A stretch of 64,000 nt of DNA from Roseivirga sp. 4D4 (GTDB taxonomy: Bacteria; Bacteroidota; Bacteroidia; Cytophagales; Cyclobacteriaceae), in NCBI RefSeq assembly GCF_001747095.1, contig NZ_MDGP01000001.1, positions 1,781,001 to 1,845,000 of the forward strand, read 5' to 3'. The notes under the pieces were generated by a model. It saw nothing but the letters and a program-made list of their open reading frames with translations. It was not told where the DNA came from and ran no database searches. The position numbers and the translations under genes were made by a program. Of the stretch, positions 5,691-43,456 are shown in pieces (the first letter of the stretch is position 1; the number at the start of each line of letters is the position of its first letter).

Positions 5691-8600
5691 ATGCAACTTA
5701 CCAAACTTGAAATAAAAGGATTTAAGAGCTTTGGAGACAAGGTAGTAATCAATTTCGATGAAGGTATTACAGGCATTGTTGGCCCCAATGGTTGTGGAAA
5801 ATCCAACGTTGTAGATTCCATTCGCTGGGTTCTGGGAGAACAAAAAACGAGGATGCTCCGGTCTGAAAAGATGGAGAACATCATCTTTAATGGTACCAAG
5901 AAAAGAAAGCCAACGCAACTCGCTGAAGTTTCGCTTTCCTTTAAAAACACAAAGAACCTCCTCCCTACCGAATACACAGAAGTGACCATTACCAGACGCT
6001 ATTACCGATCAGGTGAAAGTGAATATCTATTGAATGGTATTAGTTGTCGTCTAAAGGATATCAATAACCTCTTTATGGATACGGGTATAGCCTCTAATAG
6101 CTATGCCATTATTGAGTTAAAGATGGTTGACAACCTTTTAAATGATAAGGACGACTCCAGGCGCGACCTCTTTGAAGAAGCTGCGGGTATCTCAAAATTC
6201 AAAAAGAGAAAGAAAGAGACCCTTAGAAAACTCAAGGATACTGATGATGATCTCGATCGTGTAGAAGATCTACTCTTCGAAATAGAGAAAAACCTGAAGT
6301 CTCTCGAAAAACAAGCCCGTCAGGCCGAAAAGTACTACAAGCTCAAAGAGGAATACAAAGTTGATAGTATTCAACTGGCAAGAAGAGCGGTCTCCGAGAA
6401 AACTGACAACTTCAAAAAACTGGAAAATGAGATAAAGCAAGAAGGTGACCGTAAGATTGAAATCGGTCAAATGATTGCCAATCAGGAAGCGAATATTGAA
6501 AAGGGTAAAACGGATCTCATTACAAAAGAAAAGCTCCTCGCCTCACGTCAACGCACCTTAAACGAACATGTCAATAAAATCAGGCAGTTCGAAAGTGATA
6601 GAAAAATCAAAAACGAGCGACTTACCTTTTTAGAAGACAAAAGCGACAATCTCAGAGAACAAATCGAGGCCGATCGCAAGAGCAATGAACGAGCCGCTTT
6701 TAGCCTGGAAAGCCTGAGAAAAGAACTTGATGAAGCCGAGAAGGAATTGCAATCCATTACCAATGAAGTAGGTTCGTTAGAGAAGATTTATCAAGAGCAA
6801 AAATCAATGTCTCAATCGGCTCAGGATGAGTACGAGGAAAAGAGACGAACTTTTGCCGACAAACGAGAAAAACTTTACACCCTCAAGAAAGACATTGAGA
6901 TAAAGGAGATTCAGTTAGAGACTTTGAAAACTGAGTTTGCCAAGACAGAATCTGATACTTCTGAGCAATCAGAAACCCTTGCTCAGTTTGATGAGAAGCT
7001 CTCAGGCCTACAAAAGGAATTTGATGAGAAAAAGAAGCTGCTTGACGATAGAAAGGCAGCTGAAGAAAAGCATACCAAAGCCGTTCAGCAAACATCGGAA
7101 ACTATCGATATTATTAGAGAAGAACTGACCGGTGTAAGTAGAAGCTTAGATTCAAAAAGAAACGAGTATAATCTTACTAAGTCACTCGTTGAAAACTTAG
7201 AGGGTTTTCCAGAAGCCATTAAGTTTCTTAAAAAGAAAGCCAATTGGAACAAGTCGGCCCCTCTCCTTTCTGATATCATTACCTGTGACGAAAAGTACCG
7301 TGTGACCATCGAGAACTATCTCGAAACTTATATGAATTATTATATAGTGGACACGGAACGTCAGGCGTTTGAGGCGGTGAATATTTTGAGTGATGCATCA
7401 AAAGGAAAGGCAAACTTCTTTGTGCTCGATGCTTTTGACCACTACGAAGCTAAGGAGTCAAAGCTCTTTGAAAACACAGTTCACGCTACTGAGATAGTCG
7501 AATATGAGCCAAAGTATAAAAAACTAATAGGCTTCATTCTCGAAAACGTCTTCATCGTTAATGGCGGTCCTGGAGATATACCTGTGGATGATTCAGCTGT
7601 TTTCATTACCGAAAGTGGGCAATATACCAAGCGTAAGTTTAGTGTATCGGGCGGTTCGGTAGGACTCTTTGAAGGAAAGCGGATTGGTAGAGCAAAGAAC
7701 CTTGAAAAGCTGGAAAAAGACATCAAGTCACTTGAAACTAAATCCGTTGATATCAAGGAAAAACTTGAGCATCGTCAACAGGAATTAGCACGTTTAAAAT
7801 CAGATACCTTCCGGTCAGAGATTGATCAGCTACAGACTGATTTCAACCGGGTTAATGAAGAGCTCATCTCTATCAAAACCAAGAAAGAGCAACTCGCTCA
7901 AATGCTCTCTAGTAGGGCCAATCGTAAAGAAGATATCGTTGCTAACATTGATAAAATCAGTGCATCATTAGATCAGCTTACTCCAACCGTATCCGAAGAA
8001 GAAGCATCTTTTGCTGAGGTAGAGGGCGTTATTGGAGCCCTAGAGGAAAAGGCGAAATCTGAGTCCCAAAAGTTAGCTGAGAAGTCTCAGGCCTTTAATG
8101 AACGAAATATCCTTTTCCATCAGAAGCAAAACAGAGTCAGTTCTGTGAATCAGGAAATTGGCTTTAAAGAAACGGCCTTTGAAGGTAGCAAGCAGCGGAT
8201 TGAAAAGAATCAGCTTGAGCTAAGTAATAACGAAGCCGAGATCAAACGTCTCATTGCCAATACCGAGTCCAACGATGACGAACTCATTGAAATGTACGAT
8301 GAGAAGGAGTCTATCGAAAAAGGTGTCAATGAAGCTGAAAAAGACTATTACGCGCAACGTGGTGATATAGATGTATCAGACAAAACACTCCGCGAGCTCC
8401 AGCGCAAAAGGGAGCACTCTGATACCCTCATGATGGAACTCCAAAACAGATTGAATGAAACAAAGCTGGAGCTAAGTTCTGTCAAAGAAAGACTTTCAGT
8501 AGAGTTCAATGTGGATCTTGATCAACTACTCCTTAATGAGGAAGAAAACTCATCAGAGAAATCACTCGATGAGTTAGAGAGAAACGTATTGAAATTGCGG

Positions 8601-36160: not shown

Positions 36161-36177
36161 GCTGTAGGAGAAGGATT
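36161..36177 (-). pseudogene. 3'-end fragment of the tRNA-like gene
   Basis: The minus strand reads AATCCTTCTCCTACAGC, which is the 3' half of the T-arm, the acceptor strand and G73 of the tRNA-like gene at 36303. Upstream sequence no longer pairs. With the following terminator it forms the end of an 85-bp duplicate. Confidence 0.75.
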
Positions 36178-36265
36178 ACTCATACGCGCAAGGCATGCCG
36201 CACTGCCCCTCGTGAATCTTCGCTGCGCTCGATGTCGAACCGAGGTTCTCATCCAAAAAGAGTGT

Positions 36266-36292
36266 ATAAAAAAGGAAACCGAAATGGTTCCC
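36266..36292 (-). terminator. Terminator after tRNA-like gene copy 1
   Basis: On the minus strand GGGAACC-ATTTC-GGTTTCC is followed by six T, starting about 8 nt after the encoded CCA of copy 1. One G-U pair makes it strongest on this strand. Confidence 0.82.
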
Positions 36293-36299
36293 TTTTGAA

Positions 36300-36412
36300 T
36301 GGCTGTAGGAGAAGGATTCGAACCTCCACGGAGTGATTAGGCCGATTGGCTTTATTTCAGAACCTCCACCCTCGAGAAAGGAGGGCACGGCTGCCTGTTT
36401 CGTCACCCTACA
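36300..36412 (-). tRNA. tRNA-like gene copy 1 (class II body, nominal UUC anticodon)
   Basis: The minus strand folds as a cloverleaf. The acceptor is TGTAGGG/TCCTACA, followed by U8-G9. The D-arm is ACG-AAACAGGCAGC-CGT with G18G19, then G26. The anticodon arm is CCCTC-CTTTCTC-GAGGG, giving UUC at 36378-36376 but a pyrimidine at position 37. A long variable region is closed by GGAG/CTCC. The T-arm is GGAGG-TTCGAAT-CCTTC, then G73 and an encoded CCA. The D-arm resembles tRNA-Leu, while G73 and the long arm fit seryl-tRNA. UUC would read Glu codons, and no Glu tRNA has a class II arm. It may be a non-canonical or decayed tRNA, or a tRNA-derived regulatory RNA. A terminator follows. Confidence 0.62.
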
Positions 36413-36481
36413 GTGTTTCTCAACATTGAGTGCCTGATTGCAAGACACTCACTATTGATACTAATCATACTAAAACGTTAT

Positions 36482-36494
36482 GCTGTAGGAGAAG
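36482..36494 (-). pseudogene. Short 3'-end fragment of the tRNA-like gene
   Basis: The minus strand reads CTTCTCCTACAGC, identical to the T-arm/acceptor 3' end of both complete copies. It abuts the palindromic sequence at 36495-36514, which seems to replace the rest of the gene. Confidence 0.6.
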
Positions 36495-36514
36495 CCTGCC
36501 TGTAGGCAGACAGG
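36495..36514. repeat. Short palindromic repeat next to tRNA fragment
   Basis: CTGCCT-GT-AGGCAG (36496-36509) with flanking CC/AC bases resembles short GCCTGCC-type palindromes dispersed in Bacteroidota genomes (recollection, not tested). It interrupts a tRNA-like 3' end. Confidence 0.5.
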
Positions 36515-36583
36515 GACTTCTTTAGAAGGCCCCAAATCTCCAATAACTTTTATTCACTCCCTTCAGGAATGATCTTCATTGTG

Positions 36584-36702
36584 CTGTAGGAGAAGGACTC
36601 GAACCTTCACGGAGAGATTAGCCTTACTTAGGTAGTTTAATTTATTTCTTGTTCTCCACCCCCGGGAAAGGAGGGCACGGCTGCCTATTTCGTCATCCTA
36701 CA
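36584..36702 (-). tRNA. tRNA-like gene copy 2 (class II body, nominal UUC anticodon)
   Basis: The minus strand has the same cloverleaf as copy 1. The acceptor TGTAGGA/TCCTACA is fully Watson-Crick. The D-arm is ACG-AAATAGGCAGC-CGT. The anticodon arm is CCCTC-CTTTCCC-GGGGG (UUC at 36668-36666, C37). The variable region, about 50 nt, is closed by GGAGA/TCTCC. The T-arm GAAGG-TTCGAGT-CCTTC is perfect, followed by G73 and CAC instead of CCA. Where it differs from copy 1, pairing is kept or improved (acceptor pair 7, T-stem, variable stem), which argues for selection on structure. It is the upstream member of the pair. Confidence 0.6.
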
Positions 36703-36740
36703 GTGTGTCAATTCAACGTGTTTCTCGTTTGAAACTGTTT

Positions 36741-36748
36741 CAAAGTTA
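36741..36748 (-). promoter_or_regulatory. Possible -7 box for the tRNA-like genes
   Basis: TAACTTTG on the minus strand fits the Bacteroidota TAnnTTTG box and lies 39 nt before the 5' end of copy 2. No TTTG is found at the usual -33 distance. Confidence 0.3.
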
Positions 36749-36858: not shown

Positions 36859-37326
36859 ATGCCCGATAATTACGAAATCGATAACGTTGATCTGAAGATT
36901 CTATCGCTACTACAGCATAATGCGAAGAAACCATACACCGAAGTAGCCAAACAAGCCTACGTCTCAAGCGGTACTGTCCATGTGCGAATGAATAAGCTTG
37001 AAAAATTGGGCGTGGTCAAAGGGGCTTCACTCGATTTGAATTTGACTGCCCTTGGTTATACAGTTGGTTCATTCCTTGGCGTCTTCCTTTCTAAAAGCTC
37101 TCTCTATGATAAAGTAGCAGAACAGCTAGCCAAAATCCCTGAGATTACCTCCATTCATTATACCACTGGTAACTATAGTATGTTTGTAAAGATTTATGCT
37201 AAAAGCACTGATCACTTAAAGGATATACTACATGACAAAATCCAAAAAGTAAGTGGCATCGAACGTACAGAAACATTTGTGATTTTGGAGGAAACATTAA
37301 GTAGAAGTATCGAGTTAGATGGCTAG
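36859..37326 (+). CDS. Lrp/AsnC-family transcriptional regulator
   Basis: A 155-residue regulator. The N-terminal helix-turn-helix (DNVDLKILSLLQHNAKKPYT ... VSSGTVHVRMNKLEKLGVV) is followed by the RAM/Lrp ligand-binding domain (LGYTVGSFLGVFL ... ITSIHYTTGNYSMFVKIYA ... GIERTETFVILEE). Family members form octamers or dimers that sense amino acids. It is 120 bp upstream of the suf operon in the same direction, but a separate TAnnTTTG box before sufB suggests independent transcription. Direct control of suf is possible but not shown. Confidence 0.93.
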   Translation: MPDNYEIDNVDLKILSLLQHNAKKPYTEVAKQAYVSSGTVHVRMNKLEKLGVVKGASLDLNLTALGYTVGSFLGVFLSKSSLYDKVAEQLAKIPEITSIHYTTGNYSMFVKIYAKSTDHLKDILHDKIQKVSGIERTETFVILEETLSRSIELDG

Positions 37327-37418: not shown

Positions 37419-37446
37419 TATTTGAAATCATTCTAAATAAGATTTG

Positions 37447-38892
37447 ATGAGCAATGACGACCAGATTTTAGAAGAATTCACCTCGAAAGAGTATGAATTT
37501 GGCTGGACAGTAGACTTAGAAGCAGATGAAGCTCCCAAAGGGCTCAATGAAGATATTGTTAGATTCATTTCCGCTAAGAAGGAAGAGCCAGAATGGTTGC
37601 TTGAATGGCGACTTGAAGCCTTTAGGACTTGGCAAAAAATGACAGAACCAGAGTGGCCTAATGTTGACTACCCAAAAGTCGATTATCAAGACCTTATCTA
37701 CTACTCTGCTCCCAAACAAAAGGTGAAACCAAAGTCACTAGACGAAGTTGATCCAGAGTTATTGGCGACATTCGAAAAGCTTGGTATTTCATTAACAGAG
37801 CAAAAGAGGCTCACTGGAGTAGCCGTAGACGCAGTGATCGACTCCGTATCTGTTGCCACTACATTTAAAGATACGCTAGGTAAACTTGGTATTATTTTCT
37901 GCTCATTTTCTGAGGCAGTAAAAGAGCATCCAGAACTAGTAAGAAAACACATGGGTACAGTAGTACCTACTTCTGATAATTACTTCGCTGCATTAAATTC
38001 TGCAGTCTTTTCGGATGGCTCATTTGCCTATATCCCCAAGGGAGTAAGATGCCCAATGGAGCTTTCTACTTATTTCAGAATTAACGCTGCTAATACAGGT
38101 CAGTTTGAACGAACACTGATTGTAGCAGACGAAGGGTCTTATGTAAGCTATCTAGAAGGCTGTACAGCACCACAACGTGATGAAAACCAATTACATGCCG
38201 CTGTAGTGGAGATTAAAGCTGCTAAAGATGCGGAGGTAAAGTATTCGACTGTTCAGAACTGGTACCCTGGTGATAAAAACGGCAAAGGAGGTATTTACAA
38301 CTTTGTGACCAAGCGTGGTATTTGCGAAGGCGATAACTCCAAAATTTCTTGGACGCAAGTTGAGACCGGTTCAGCCGTTACATGGAAGTACCCGTCATGT
38401 ATCCTCAAAGGAGATAATTCTCAAGGTGAGTTCTATTCCGTTGCGGTAACAAACAACTACCAACAGGCGGATACAGGAACAAAAATGATCCACATAGGGA
38501 AAAACACCAAATCGAGAATCGTTTCGAAAGGTATTTCAGCTGGTTATTCTCAGAATAGTTATCGTGGCCAAGTTCAGGTGATGAAACGTGCCGAGAATGC
38601 AAGAAACTTTTCACAATGTGACTCATTATTAATGGGTGACAAATGTGGAGCGCACACTTTCCCTTATATCGATATTGAGAACTCATCTGCACAAGTAGAA
38701 CATGAGGCAACGACATCGAAAATCGGTGAAGATCAAATCTTCTACTGCCAGCAAAGAGGTATCGATGAAGAGTCAGCAGTAGCCCTTATTGTAAATGGCT
38801 ACGCCAAAGAAGTATTGAATCAATTACCAATGGAGTTTGCCGTTGAGGCACAAAAACTACTCGCATTGACCCTAGAAGGCTCAGTGGGATAA
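37447..38892 (+). CDS. sufB: Fe-S cluster scaffold subunit SufB
   Basis: A 481-residue SufB of full length. ATG 37447 is preferred to a TTG one codon earlier. Typical elements are [60 protein letters not shown] and YVSYLEG. The conserved Cys region ([20 protein letters not shown]) with the C-terminal QRGIDEESA is present. SufB forms the SufBC2D scaffold on which sulfur from SufS/SufE is combined with iron. It is the first gene of the suf operon. Confidence 0.97.
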
Positions 38893-38926
38893 TCACACTC
38901 CTATTTCAAAAAGACAAAAGAGTAAA

Positions 38927-39685
38927 ATGTTATCTATAAAGAATTTAGAGGCCAGAATCGAAGAGAAAGAAATTCTCAGAGGTATTAATCTAGAAGTAAA
39001 ACCTGGAGAGGTTCATGCCATCATGGGACCTAATGGATCGGGGAAAAGTACACTTGCTTCTGTACTTGCTGGTCGTGAAGATTACGAGGTTACTTCGGGA
39101 GATGTTGACTTCCTAGGTAAGGACCTTTTGGATATGGATGCGGACGAAAGAGCACGAGAAGGTATCTTTTTGGCATTTCAGTATCCTGTAGAAATCCCAG
39201 GAGTTAGTACTACTAACTTCATGAAAACAGCCATCAACCAAGTCAGAGAACATCATGGCGAGAAGCCATTAGATGCAGTTTCTTTCTTGAAGTTGATGAA
39301 AGAGAAGATGAAGCTCGTTGAAATCGATCAGTCATTACTAAGCCGATCTTTAAACGAAGGTTTTTCTGGTGGTGAAAAGAAAAGAAACGAGATATTCCAA
39401 ATGGCAATGCTCGAGCCGAAGTTGGCCATCCTTGATGAGACTGATTCGGGCCTCGATATTGATGCCCTTAAGATTGTAGCAAACGGTGTGAATGCACTTA
39501 AGTCTAAGGATAATGCGACTATTGTTGTGACACATTACCAAAGACTACTGGACTACATTGTGCCGGATTATGTACATGTATTGTACAAAGGGCGCATCGT
39601 TAAGTCTGGCACCAAAGACTTGGCCCTTGAATTAGAGGCAAAAGGCTACGATTGGATTAAAGAAGAAGCTGACGCAACTGTTTAA
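38927..39685 (+). CDS. sufC: SUF ATPase SufC
   Basis: A 252-residue ABC ATPase. Walker A is GPNGSGKST, the signature LNEGFSGGEKKRNEI (the SufC form), and Walker B LAILDETDSGLDIDAL. The Q-loop is AFQYPVEIPGV. It binds SufB and SufD, and its ATP cycle opens the complex for cluster assembly. There is no membrane partner. It lies 34 bp after sufB and 3 bp before sufD. Confidence 0.97.
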   Translation: MLSIKNLEARIEEKEILRGINLEVKPGEVHAIMGPNGSGKSTLASVLAGREDYEVTSGDVDFLGKDLLDMDADERAREGIFLAFQYPVEIPGVSTTNFMKTAINQVREHHGEKPLDAVSFLKLMKEKMKLVEIDQSLLSRSLNEGFSGGEKKRNEIFQMAMLEPKLAILDETDSGLDIDALKIVANGVNALKSKDNATIVVTHYQRLLDYIVPDYVHVLYKGRIVKSGTKDLALELEAKGYDWIKEEADATV

Positions 39686-39688
39686 GCA

Positions 39689-41014
39689 ATGGACAAATTA
39701 TCAGGTCAATCTATTTTAGATGCACTGACTGGTAGATTCGAGGCTTTTGAAAAAAGCTTAAACGGTCAGAGCAAGTCAGCCATTCATCAGGTTAGGAAAA
39801 ATGCTTTCGAAGCATTGAAGGCCAATGGCTTCCCTGCGCCTAAGGATGAAGAATACAAGTTCACTAACCTCACCAGAGCCTTAGAAAAGAACATAGACTT
39901 TCATACGCAGGCCTCTGCCCCATCGATCACTACCAAGCAAATCGAAGGCGTTAAGATTCCAAATCTCGATGCATACAACTTAGTATTTATAAATGGAGAA
40001 TTCTCGGCAGAGAAATCTGATGACTTCTCAGTTGAAGGCTTAGAGGTGAATACTTTCGAGCAGGCTTCAAAGGAAAACGCGGACCATGTAGCTGATTACT
40101 TTGGCAAACAGGCAGATTTTGAGAAAGATCCATTCATAGCCTTAAACACGGCATTCAGTCATAATGGAGTAGTCATAAATGTTGGAAACAATGTCGTTGT
40201 CGATAAGCCAATTGCATTGTATTTCGTCAGTGATAGTTCTAGTGAACAGCCTATTTACAATACAAGAAACATTGTCGTTGTTGGAAAGTCTGCCCAAGTG
40301 ACTGTTCTTGAGAAATTTGATACGCTTGGTAAAGAGAAGTCATTTACCAATGCCGTTAATGAGATCTTTGTTGCGGAAAATGCAAACGCCAAATACTACA
40401 AAGTAGAGAACGATGCCGATGCTACTTATCATATTTCAAATGTGAATGTAGCGCAAGACAGAAATAGCAATTTTACAGCAAATACTATCGCCTTAAATGG
40501 TGCCATGGTACGTAACAACCTCGACATCAAACTGAATAGCGAAGGTTGCGAAGCACACATGAACGGGCTTTATGTTTTGGGAGGAAAAACGCATGTTGAC
40601 AACCACACCACGGTTGATCACACTATGCCAAATGCCTATTCCAACGAGCTCTATAAAGGCATTATGGACGACAAGTCAAAAGGAGTTTTCAATGGTAAAA
40701 TCTTTGTTAGAAAAGATGCTCAAAAAACTAATGCCTTCCAGTCCAATAAAAACATTTTAATGACCAATGATGCCACTGTGAACACTAAACCGCAGTTGGA
40801 AATTTGGGCTGACGATGTAAAATGTTCGCATGGATGTACCACTGGCCAGCTTGATCAGGATGCGTTGTTCTATTTGCAAGCCAGAGGTATCAGAAAAGAA
40901 AGAGCAAGAGCCATACTATTGCATGCTTTTGCAAGTGATGTAATCGAGAACCTAGAGATTAAGGCCATTCAAGATTACGTAGAGGAGATTATTACAGCCA
41001 GGTTAGAAAAGTAA
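39689..41014 (+). CDS. sufD: Fe-S cluster assembly protein SufD
   Basis: A 441-residue SufD with the SufB/D beta-helix core (NVVVDKPIALYFVSD ... DNHTTVDHTMPNAYSNELYK ... GVFNGKIFVRKDAQKTNAFQ) and the C-terminal DDVKCSHGCTTGQLDQDALF, which holds the His/Cys positions of the family. It pairs with SufB in the SufBC2D complex and is needed for iron acquisition. The spacing of 3 bp on each side indicates tight cotranscription. Confidence 0.96.
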   Translation: MDKLSGQSILDALTGRFEAFEKSLNGQSKSAIHQVRKNAFEALKANGFPAPKDEEYKFTNLTRALEKNIDFHTQASAPSITTKQIEGVKIPNLDAYNLVFINGEFSAEKSDDFSVEGLEVNTFEQASKENADHVADYFGKQADFEKDPFIALNTAFSHNGVVINVGNNVVVDKPIALYFVSDSSSEQPIYNTRNIVVVGKSAQVTVLEKFDTLGKEKSFTNAVNEIFVAENANAKYYKVENDADATYHISNVNVAQDRNSNFTANTIALNGAMVRNNLDIKLNSEGCEAHMNGLYVLGGKTHVDNHTTVDHTMPNAYSNELYKGIMDDKSKGVFNGKIFVRKDAQKTNAFQSNKNILMTNDATVNTKPQLEIWADDVKCSHGCTTGQLDQDALFYLQARGIRKERARAILLHAFASDVIENLEIKAIQDYVEEIITARLEK

Positions 41015-41016
41015 TC

Positions 41017-42258
41017 ATGTCAAATACACTGACTGATCACCATATCGATGTAGAGCGCATTAGAAAGGAGTTCCAAGTACTTGATCAAGAAGTCAATGGA
41101 AAGCCTTTGATTTATTTTGACAATGCGGCTACCAATCAAAAACCTCAACGGGTAATTGATGCATTGGTACATCATTATCAAAATGATAACGCCAATATTC
41201 ATCGAGGCATTCATACCCTTGCAGAAAGATCTACAGCAAAGTTTGAAGAAACCAGAAAAGCGGTTCAAGAATTCATTGGTGCCAATGAGGCTGAAGAAAT
41301 TATCTTCACAAAGGGTACTTCTGAAAGCATTAACCTTGTCGCTAGTTCATGGGGACGAAAGTTCTTGAACCAAGGTGATGAAGTATTGATTTCGGCCATG
41401 GAGCACCATTCCAATATCGTGCCCTGGCAAATGATCTGTGAAGAACGAGGTGCTATTTTAAAAGTAATGCCCATTAATGAGGCTGGAGAGATTATTCTGG
41501 AGGAAGTAGAGCAACTCTTGACAGAGAAGGCCAAAATGGTCGCTTTCAACCATGCTTCCAATACGCTGGGCACCATTAACCCAGTAAAAAAGATCACCAA
41601 AATGGCGCATGCCGTTGGTGCAAAAGTGCTGATAGACGGTGCACAGTCTACCTCTCATCTAGAGGTGAATGTAAAAGATTTGAATGTTGACTTTTTTGCC
41701 TTTTCGGCACACAAAATGTATGGCCCGACAGGCCTTGGCGTGCTTTATGGTAAGAGAGGCATTCTAGAAAAAATACCCCCATACCAAGGCGGTGGTGAGA
41801 TGATCAAGGATGTTTCATTTGGTGGAACGACATACAATGACATTCCTTATAAATTTGAAGCAGGTACTCCTGACATTGCCAACGTCATCGCTTTGAAGAA
41901 GGCAATCGAGTTTATCGATGAGTTGGGCAAAGAGAACATTTCGGCTTACGAGGAAGAACTCCTCTCCTATGCGACAGAGCAGTTGTCAGCAATCGAAGGC
42001 TTAAGGATTATTGGGACTGCACAAGAAAAGGTCAGTGTTGTTTCTTTTGAAGTAGAAGGAATCCATCATTTTGACCTTGGTATGTGGCTAGATGCGAAGG
42101 GAATTGCTGTGAGAACTGGCCACCACTGTACTCAACCATTAATGGATCATTATTGTATTGAGGGAACTGCCAGGGCTTCGTTTGCTGTTTATAATACCAA
42201 ATCTGAGATAGACACTTTTGTGTCAGCTCTGAAAGACATAATCACCAAATTCAAATAA
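41017..42258 (+). CDS. sufS: Cysteine desulfurase SufS
   Basis: A 413-residue PLP enzyme of the group II desulfurases. The PLP Lys is K233 in FSAHKMYGPTG. The persulfide Cys is C371 in RTGHHCTQPLM. Cofactor-binding HHSNIVPWQ and DGAQSTSH are present. It converts cysteine to alanine and passes the persulfide to SufE, encoded next with a 1-bp overlap (TAATG). It supplies sulfur for the operon's scaffold. Confidence 0.97.
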   Translation: MSNTLTDHHIDVERIRKEFQVLDQEVNGKPLIYFDNAATNQKPQRVIDALVHHYQNDNANIHRGIHTLAERSTAKFEETRKAVQEFIGANEAEEIIFTKGTSESINLVASSWGRKFLNQGDEVLISAMEHHSNIVPWQMICEERGAILKVMPINEAGEIILEEVEQLLTEKAKMVAFNHASNTLGTINPVKKITKMAHAVGAKVLIDGAQSTSHLEVNVKDLNVDFFAFSAHKMYGPTGLGVLYGKRGILEKIPPYQGGGEMIKDVSFGGTTYNDIPYKFEAGTPDIANVIALKKAIEFIDELGKENISAYEEELLSYATEQLSAIEGLRIIGTAQEKVSVVSFEVEGIHHFDLGMWLDAKGIAVRTGHHCTQPLMDHYCIEGTARASFAVYNTKSEIDTFVSALKDIITKFK

Positions 42259-42695
42259 TGAGTCAGGCAATCAACCAAATACAGGATGAGATCATAGATG
42301 AGTTTTCTATGCTAGATGGCGATATGGAAATGACCATTAGCTACATCATGGAGCTTGGTGAACAATTGCCTGAGATGACCGAAGCAAACAAAACTGAGGA
42401 CAACATAGTGAAAGGCTGTCAGTCAAAGGTTTGGATGAAAGCTGGCCTGGAGGATGGAAAGGTAGAGTTTGAGGCAGACAGCAACACGGCCATTACCAAA
42501 GGTTTAGTGAGTTTACTGGTAAGAATTCTTTCGGGTAAATCTCCTCAGGAGATAATCGATGCGGACTTATACTTCATTGATAAGATTGGTTTGAATCGAT
42601 TCATTGGAACGCAAAGATCAAATGGCTTTGGAGCAATGATGAAGCAGATGAAAATTTATGGCTTAGCCTTTTCTACCAAAACACAAAGTGCTTAG
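42258..42695 (+). CDS. sufE: Sulfur acceptor SufE
   Basis: A 145-residue SufE. The sulfur-accepting Cys54 is in NIVKGCQSKVW, as in the family. The C-terminal RFIGTQRSNGFGAMMKQMK is also typical. It takes persulfide from SufS and delivers it to SufB. Its start overlaps the sufS stop by 1 bp. Confidence 0.96.
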   Translation: MSQAINQIQDEIIDEFSMLDGDMEMTISYIMELGEQLPEMTEANKTEDNIVKGCQSKVWMKAGLEDGKVEFEADSNTAITKGLVSLLVRILSGKSPQEIIDADLYFIDKIGLNRFIGTQRSNGFGAMMKQMKIYGLAFSTKTQSA

Positions 42696-42696
42696 T

Positions 42697-43017
42697 ATGG
42701 CGGAAGGATTGAAAGAAAACTTGAGAGACGAAGTCGTTGCTGCGATAAAGACAGTCTACGACCCTGAAATACCTGTAGACATTTATGAATTGGGCTTGAT
42801 CTATGAGATCAATGTATTTCCAATAAACAATGTTTATGTGTTAATGACACTCACCTCTCCCTCTTGCCCAGCAGCAGAGGTTATTCCGGAAGAAACAAAA
42901 CAAGCAATAAAAAAAATAGAAGGTGTAAACGATGTTGAGATTGAACTGACATTCGATCCGCCTTTCACCCAAGACATGATGTCTGAAGAAGCCAAGTTAG
43001 AGCTCGGCTTTATGTAA
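42697..43017 (+). CDS. SUF-associated DUF59 (MIP18/SufT-like) protein
   Basis: A 106-residue protein starting [20 protein letters not shown], with ATG 42697 chosen over an upstream GTG that overlaps sufE. The DUF59 motif [17 protein letters not shown] is complete and [14 protein letters not shown] carries the conserved Cys. Relatives help mature Fe-S proteins and are regularly found in Gram-positive and Bacteroidota suf operons. It probably acts as carrier or assembly helper. It starts 1 bp after the sufE stop. Confidence 0.93.
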
Positions 43018-43039
43018 TAAGAATATAAAAAGTAGAGAT

Positions 43040-43456
43040 ATGTACCCAGAACATTTATTAGTCCCATTTAGACAAGAATTGACTGAAGCGGGCTTTTCAG
43101 AATTAAAAACAGCAGAAGCTGTTGAAGAGCACCTATCAGATCACAAAGGAACATCTTTGGTAGTAATCAACTCAGTATGTGGATGTGCAGCTGGAACGGC
43201 AAGACCAGGTGTTAAAATGGCCTTAAAGCTTGCTGATAAACAACCTGATAACTTAACAACTGTATTCGCTGGTGGCGACCTTGAGGCTACGGCAAAGGTG
43301 AGAGAATTCCATTTACCTTTCCCTCCTTCGTCTCCTTCAGTTGCGCTTTTTAAGGACGGTGAGTTGGTTCACTTTGTAGAACGTCACCATATTGAAGGTA
43401 GATCTGCAGAAGTAATAGGAAACCACTTAGCAGATGTGTTCGAAGAGCACTGCTAA
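43040..43456 (+). CDS. BrxA/BrxB-type bacilliredoxin
   Basis: A 138-residue thioredoxin-fold protein. The active site is [13 protein letters not shown], a CGC motif with C47 and C49, as in YphP/YqiW bacilliredoxins. [11 protein letters not shown] and the C-terminal [16 protein letters not shown] match the family. In Bacillus it removes bacillithiol from proteins, and the CGC protein may also act as a disulfide isomerase. Position at the end of the suf operon suggests protection of thiols in Fe-S assembly. A terminator follows. Confidence 0.94.

Follow-up and report, generated by a model that had tools for sequence, protein, structure and literature searches.

What is the RNA encoded twice, in tandem, on the minus strand of this stretch of Roseivirga DNA, with the look of a class II tRNA and a nominal UUC anticodon? 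The window, i.e. the whole stretch of 64,000 nucleotides analysed here, had received a sequence-only reading which described two tRNA-like copies outside the standard tRNA families, and proposed for them either a serine-charged, misreading allo-tRNA or a non-decoding RNA. We find both copies at the place and on the strand given there, the interval proposed for the first one, 36300-36412, including the three bases of CCA; two relics of the 3' end close by go unmentioned in that reading (Table 1). Both copies (110-119 nt) have a 7-bp acceptor, U8, G18G19, a long variable arm, a 5-bp T stem and G73; their 7-nt loop reads C-U-U-U-C-Y-C, so that the anticodon is UUC, U33 is kept and position 37 is a pyrimidine, U in copy 1 and C in copy 2. 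Folding energy by itself gives no support to either copy (z of 0.23 and -0.26).

Table 1. Features of the locus, in coordinates of the window.
Feature	Position	Strand	Details
tRNA-like RNA copy 1	36300..36412	-	U1 at 36412, G73 at 36303, encoded CCA at 36302-36300
tRNA-like RNA copy 2	36584..36702	-	U1 at 36702, G73 at 36584; followed 3' by CAC, CCA not encoded
Loop 32-38 of copy 1	36374..36380	-	CUUUCUC, i.e. U34 U35 C36 U37 C38
Loop 32-38 of copy 2	36664..36670	-	CUUUCCC
Variable arm of copy 1, 38 nt	36330..36367	-	covarying basal stem of 4 bp; internal loop GAAAUAAA / CUAAUC, conserved; hairpin GCC/GGC
Variable arm of copy 2, 47 nt	36611..36657	-	
17-nt relic	36161..36177	-	exact match to the 3' end of copy 1 (BLAST)
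13-nt 3'-end relic between the copies	about 36482-36494	-	by eye
Possible terminator, hairpin and T run 3' of copy 1	36262..36297	-	by eye; not among the calls of the terminator scan
Possible operator, a palindrome TTTGAAACTGTTTCAAA lying 5' of copy 2	36728..36744	strand-neutral	by eye
AsnC/Lrp-family regulator, divergent neighbour	36859..37326	+	ORF and domain search

The tools commonly used for tRNA genes pass over this element. ARAGORN calls no tRNA and no tmRNA in the whole window, where Rfam at its gathering thresholds gives no match either. In a scan of 801 bases the Rfam tRNA model reaches 28.1 bits on copy 1 (E 0.0013) for a gathering score of 29, and copy 2 is absent from the same scan. 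Ten related loci gave no Rfam family at gathering on the element, and 42 other matches did pass. An exception appears: the short variant of genome G036, which ARAGORN calls a tRNA-Asp(AUC). The model that we built for the family also matches the ordinary tRNAs of the window's own genome, those for Leu included, at 24-49 bits. These results agree with the earlier view that the copies belong to no standard tRNA family. As no description of such an RNA was found in the open-licence literature, searched by title or abstract start, the family, widespread in Bacteroidota and their phages, is apparently undescribed.

The family is conserved well beyond this genome. BLAST finds copies in at least 28 of the 39 genomes searched, the own genome included (the 29 loci read cover 27 of them, and G003 is counted for having the same BLAST hit as G005); two genomes of the same genus, G004 and G011, gave no clear BLAST match to the RNA. 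Over 30 sequences the 24 pairs of the cloverleaf are 99.6% paired and seven pairs are changed on both sides, whereas with slid partners pairing drops to 53-64%. In a larger set of 220 distinct sequences, in which the search pattern mis-delimited some variable-arm rows, covariation is seen in the acceptor stem and in those of the D, variable and T arms. This covariation supports the cloverleaf and, with the score of copy 1 against the Rfam tRNA model, bears out the class II-like fold read from the window; it also provides the covarying homologues that the same reading had proposed to look for in related genomes. A core pattern retrieves at least 119 stretches of named bacterial genomes, with Cytophagales, Saprospiraceae, Chitinophagales, a few Flavobacteriales and others among the titles of the matches listed, as well as 84 viral contigs. 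Of the cellular loci read, 146 of 148 match this core, with one to five copies each. In many longer members (e.g. the viral loci L249 and L258 and the cellular loci L113 and L122) the variable arm ends with a shared motif, GGGUNGACCAC; GACCAC is present in 90 of the 220 sequences, 49 cellular and 41 viral, and the window copies are without the GGGUNGACCAC motif.

Does this RNA decode? The cloverleaf with its 7-bp acceptor, the 5-bp T stem and the T loop are those of an elongator tRNA; the combination of U33 and a purine 37, on the other hand, is no rule of the family. A purine 37 is found in 2 of the 225 distinct copies versus 338 of the 341 ordinary tRNAs that these loci contain by ARAGORN, and U33 in 196 (lost in 29) versus 339 of 341, a control somewhat biased since ARAGORN favours canonical loops. 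The abnormality of position 37 noticed in the window thus extends to the family, and the RNA, judged by its sequence, does not look like a decoding tRNA; the second proposal of the sequence-only reading, a possible non-decoding RNA, holds up. The 3' half of the loop behaves otherwise. Positions 32, 35, 36 and 38 are imposed by the core pattern, yet in a 51-sequence alignment with 10 members from outside the pattern U35, C36, C38, G39 and G73 are invariant. G34 is present in 16 of 16 pattern-free members; these vary at position 33 (U, C or A), and compensating changes distinguish some of their anticodon stems. Among the 225 distinct copies, 182 have G34; the remaining 43 include both window copies, U34 being found in the window's own genus and A34 or C34 in others.

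We also considered that the window loop CCUCCUUUCU, which we take to resemble the 3' tail of 16S rRNA, could mimic the anti-Shine-Dalgarno sequence, and rejected this idea since positions 33-34 vary across the family. A 9-kb rRNA stretch, which is without the 16S tail, shows at most 9 nt of exact complementarity to the copies or to the consensus, and the 16S search of the own genome gave no match.

The acceptor end is conserved too. The pair U1-A72 is found in 217 and G2-C71 in all of the 220 distinct sequences; G10 is mostly absent, the first D pair being mostly A-U or U-A. Position 74 is C in 224 of 225 copies, the remaining one having no sequence there, and the ordinary tRNAs of the own genome, as delimited by ARAGORN, also end in the discriminator followed by C, which suggests that the 3' end of the RNA probably matures like theirs. 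The variant of G036, which is without the long arm and has a different anticodon stem, keeps the loop CUAUCUC, G73 and U1-A72: the long arm is thus dispensable, whereas the acceptor end is kept, as is the loop in its 3' half. These positions are reminiscent of aspartate. The bacterial aspartate determinants listed in PMC9976931 are G73, G34, U35, C36, C38 and G10, with G2-C71 as a minor one, and the amidation of Asp-tRNA(Asn) is described as conferred by U1-A72 and prevented by G1-C72 with U20a (PMC9976931; PMC4206432). The RNA thus combines most determinants of AspRS with the GatCAB determinant U1-A72, a combination found neither in the own tRNA-Asp, which starts with G1-C72, nor in the own tRNA-Asn (anticodon GUU, U1-A72). 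Against an aspartate reading count the U34 of the window's own genus, the other copies deviating from G34 and the rarity of G10.

For co-occurrence, a single sample of 296 genomes from the phylum, 73 of them in the window's class, was searched with the RNA model and for GatB. A genome was counted as having the RNA if its best match stood under 1e-16 and exceeded a tRNA in length, as in 29 of the 73 class genomes, and short variants scoring like tRNA-Leu may escape this count. GatB is found in all 29 genomes with the RNA versus 4 of the 44 without it, the other 40 having no GatB (Fisher p 2e-16, a statistic that ignores kinship and is not the probability of independence). All 73 class genomes have AsnRS over the cut-off, and 69 of them also GlnRS; among the 69 having both, 27 carry RNA and GatB, none the RNA only, 2 GatB only and 40 neither. 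The link is not that of one clade, since the families f16 and f17 each hold genomes with both and genomes with neither. Of the 223 genomes outside the class, 220 have GatB but only 2 the RNA (G311 and G319, both without GlnRS over the cut-off), so that GatCAB does not require the RNA.

The four genomes scored with GatB and without the RNA are G036, G079, G191 and G238. The first, re-read after the scoring, holds the short variant already mentioned. G036 and G079 are without GlnRS and would therefore need GatCAB for Gln-tRNA; the same applies to two genomes with the RNA, G203 and G309. In G079 the 1,588,900 bases searched yielded, besides matches to ordinary tRNA-Leu and tRNA-Ser, no more than two weak matches, of 14.9 and 16.3 bits; a long 'tRNA-Asp' call in this genome was rejected as a variant of the RNA, as it has no T loop. 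G191 and G238 have, by their ORFs, gatA and a GatB-AspRS fusion, beside which no RNA was found. The fusion genes, of 1110 and 1116 aa, follow gatA in L314:6896-11628 (G191) and L315:6929-11676 (G238), Pfam domains having been checked in the gene of G191 only, and both genomes carry a second AspRS-like gene. This arrangement looks like a covalent transamidosome. No homologue of gatA, gatB or aspS appears in the loci fetched around the RNA.

A histidine in AspRS is, we presume, a sign of relaxed specificity, i.e. of a non-discriminating enzyme. The ordinary AspRSs of 10 genomes with the RNA and 7 without it, as well as those of G036, G079 and G191, are without this residue, which is present only in the two GatB-fused AspRSs, from genomes where no RNA was found. 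This distribution would fit two solutions, one pairing a strict AspRS with a carrier RNA, the other relying on the fusion of GatB with a relaxed AspRS. AsnB of the E. coli type is found in none of the 29 class genomes with the RNA versus 35 of the 44 without it, this type being a class of our own (best piece ending at model position 384-389, or pieces summing to that) drawn from matches complete to about E 8e-24, with one copy, in G067, containing an internal stop. The idea that genomes with the RNA are without any asparagine synthetase was rejected: 68 of 75 genomes have AsnB-like proteins of some subtype (TIGR01536) over the cut-off, and only the E. coli-type subtype separates the groups. 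As AsnA is moreover found in 3 genomes with the RNA (and in 5 without), a need for asparagine is only suggested. Four genomes with the RNA, G034, G285, G187 and G305, have neither AsnA nor TIGR01536 over the cut-off; G055, G083 and G152, with neither RNA nor GatB, have no AsnA and no E. coli-type AsnB.

The regulator next to the RNA in the window matches PF01037 (70.1 bits) and an AsnC-type HTH (46.6 bits). Among the 146 cellular loci, 125 of which extend at least 1 kb upstream, 85 have a divergent AsnC/Lrp gene a short way upstream of the RNA, at a median of 175 nt from the core; none occurs in the 84 viral loci. AsnC of E. coli activates asnA, an activation abolished by asparagine (PMC4482635), and PMC8707732 mentions AsnC as a local regulator lying divergent to the gene it controls. 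By analogy the neighbouring regulator probably controls the RNA; membership of the family does not reveal its ligand. The palindrome of the window was rejected as a family-wide operator, being limited to close relatives: a related pattern occurs in 14 of the 85 loci, and inverted repeats overall are not clearly above shuffles. Downstream of the regulator, SufB and other suf-like genes occupy positions 37444-43456 of the window, and a SufB-like cluster is present in 48 of the 146 loci, so that the neighbourhood is conserved beyond the regulator.

Phages carry the RNA in another setting. ARAGORN finds other tRNAs or a tmRNA in 53 of 84 viral loci, always within 1 kb of the element, and in 43 the nearest such gene lies within 300 nt on the same strand; by contrast, 0 of 189 cellular copies have an ARAGORN tRNA within 1 kb. 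The viral element often stands directly after a tRNA-Ser. A tmRNA, separate from the element, is found in 13 of the 84. Several viral loci (e.g. L252, L263, L279, L306 and L307) hold large tRNA arrays, several with a tmRNA of their own, whose tag peptides are long, such as AEELSSFTFEDAMAFVGADYAVAA; in L252 a GOLLD RNA (6933-7342, plus strand, 268 bits) shares the phage contig with the tRNA-like RNA, a tmRNA and about 25 tRNAs. In annotated plasmids and phages, two queries of phage type met short partial matches only, the longest of them covering 27% of its query, and a single host query met none. The family also adds to the translation gear carried by phages a member missed by ARAGORN and by the Rfam cut-off.

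The best explanation, which could equally turn out right or wrong, is a non-decoding RNA that would carry Asp through its amidation to Asn. A tRNA(Leu)-like body would be used outside decoding, its loop and acceptor end offering AspRS an aspartate set (U35, C36, C38, G73, G2-C71 and usually G34), so that the RNA should be charged with Asp. Through U1-A72 the Asp-RNA would become a substrate of GatCAB and give Asn-RNA; as the RNA lacks the normal features of decoding, Asn would not be inserted at Asp codons. It might be released or handed on, supplying asparagine where the ordinary AspRS probably cannot charge tRNA(Asn). We know of no step for releasing Asn from such an RNA. What mainly speaks against this reading is the U34 of the window's own genus and the presence of AsnB-like proteins in most genomes; the rarity of G10, the loci around the RNA without gatA, gatB or aspS, the genomes G055, G083 and G152 and the many genomes outside the class with GatB but no RNA count against it as well. 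Phages, carrying it with their tRNA sets, would presumably keep the function going during infection.

An unlikely alternative is that a non-decoding aminoacyl-tRNA, instead of supplying asparagine, passes its Asp or Asn to an acceptor other than the ribosome (lipid, peptide or cell wall), in the manner of the non-decoding tRNA(Gly) species of staphylococci. Decoding features would be lost and identity elements kept alike, and AsnB-like proteins are present in most of these genomes; however, the first 25 neighbour clusters, judged by sequence, contain no conserved acceptor-transferase gene, and the phage tRNA arrays with tmRNA, like the AsnC-family neighbour, better fit translation or amino-acid supply. 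That the RNA remains uncharged, as a structural or regulatory RNA of translation (ribosome-bound, a tRNA mimic) tied to GatCAB by shared ancestry, seems to us quite unlikely. The strong conservation of the 3' half of the loop and the phage arrays speak for it, and GatCAB and the RNA could have been co-lost in the same lineages, but the mixed composition of f16 and f17 argues against this, as do the CCA-type 3' end, the conserved acceptor pairs, G73 and C74. It is improbable that GatCAB simply acts on tRNA(Asn) via a relaxed AspRS, the RNA having another role: the ordinary AspRSs of the 10 genomes with the RNA are without the presumed histidine signature, and the AspRS-type loop and U1-A72 of the RNA are left unexplained, even if the own tRNA-Asn does carry U1-A72. 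In its favour, this use of a relaxed AspRS was shown for Bdellovibrio bacteriovorus and suggested for some Bacteroidetes (PMC4206432).

A decoding tRNA for Asp or Glu codons, or the serine-charged misreading allo-tRNA of the sequence-only reading, is very improbable. The 7-nt loop with UUC or GUC suits the former, and G73, G2-C71 and the large variable arm are common to tRNA(Ser). The bacterial serine set indeed includes G73, G2-C71, R4-Y69, a large variable region and C72 (PMC9976931). All of these are found in the RNA except C72, replaced by a nearly fixed A72, and the short variant of G036 is missing the large variable region; the leucine identity is in turn disfavoured by G73. Moreover the branch is 7/5, not 8/4 or 9/3, the loop is of aspartate type, ordinary tRNA-Asp and tRNA-Glu genes exist in the own genome, and, as U33 and a purine 37 are not kept, efficient misreading is unlikely. 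By its sequence, the serine proposal is not supported. Decayed tRNA copies or a functionless phage attachment site, which the short 3'-end relics nearby might evoke, are scarcely credible in view of the compensatory changes, the wide conservation, the conserved neighbour and the phage copies.

Returning to the asparagine carrier, we tentatively propose, with somewhat more doubt than hope, a class of RNA for amino-acid synthesis, a tRNA having shed the features of decoding and uniting what AspRS recognises in tRNA(Asp) with what GatCAB recognises in tRNA(Asn): where AspRS is strict, bacteria would make asparagine on an RNA without mistranslation, and phages would bring their own copy. If true, this would be an RNA devoted to making an amino acid, and it would explain why GatCAB persists in some Bacteroidota that possess both AsnRS and GlnRS; PMC4206432 raises this question for bacteria at large. 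The model also predicts that G004 and G011 are without GatCAB or have a diverged copy of the RNA.

Compared with known molecules, the RNA resembles tRNA-Leu by its D-arm and long variable arm and differs from it by G73 instead of A73, the aspartate-type loop, U1-A72 and a longer, structured variable arm (38-47 nt in the window, longer elsewhere). With tRNA-Asp it shares U35, C36, C38, G73, G2-C71 and usually G34; U1-A72 in place of G1-C72, the pyrimidine 37 and the unrelated body set it apart. In staphylococci, non-decoding tRNA(Gly) species serve cell-wall synthesis: there too a tRNA is kept as an amino-acid carrier outside translation, but for another amino acid, with other enzyme partners and with no known link to GatCAB. 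A tmRNA joins a tRNA-like domain to a tag-encoding one, unlike the window RNAs, which are of 110-119 nt and receive no tmRNA call. The long variable arm and G73 recall allo-tRNAs, which are 8/4 or 9/3 species (PMC7609411), and tRNA-Sec, with its 13-bp domain; in both the acceptor/T branches are lengthened or rearranged, whereas the RNA is 7/5. The nearest system is the tRNA-dependent synthesis of Asn, by a non-discriminating AspRS and GatCAB on tRNA-Asn, which can rescue an Asn auxotroph of E. coli (PMC4206432). The RNA would likewise use AspRS, GatCAB and U1-A72; on the other hand, the carrier in that pathway is the decoding tRNA(Asn) and AspRS is relaxed, whereas here it would be a separate, non-decoding RNA with a loop of aspartate type.
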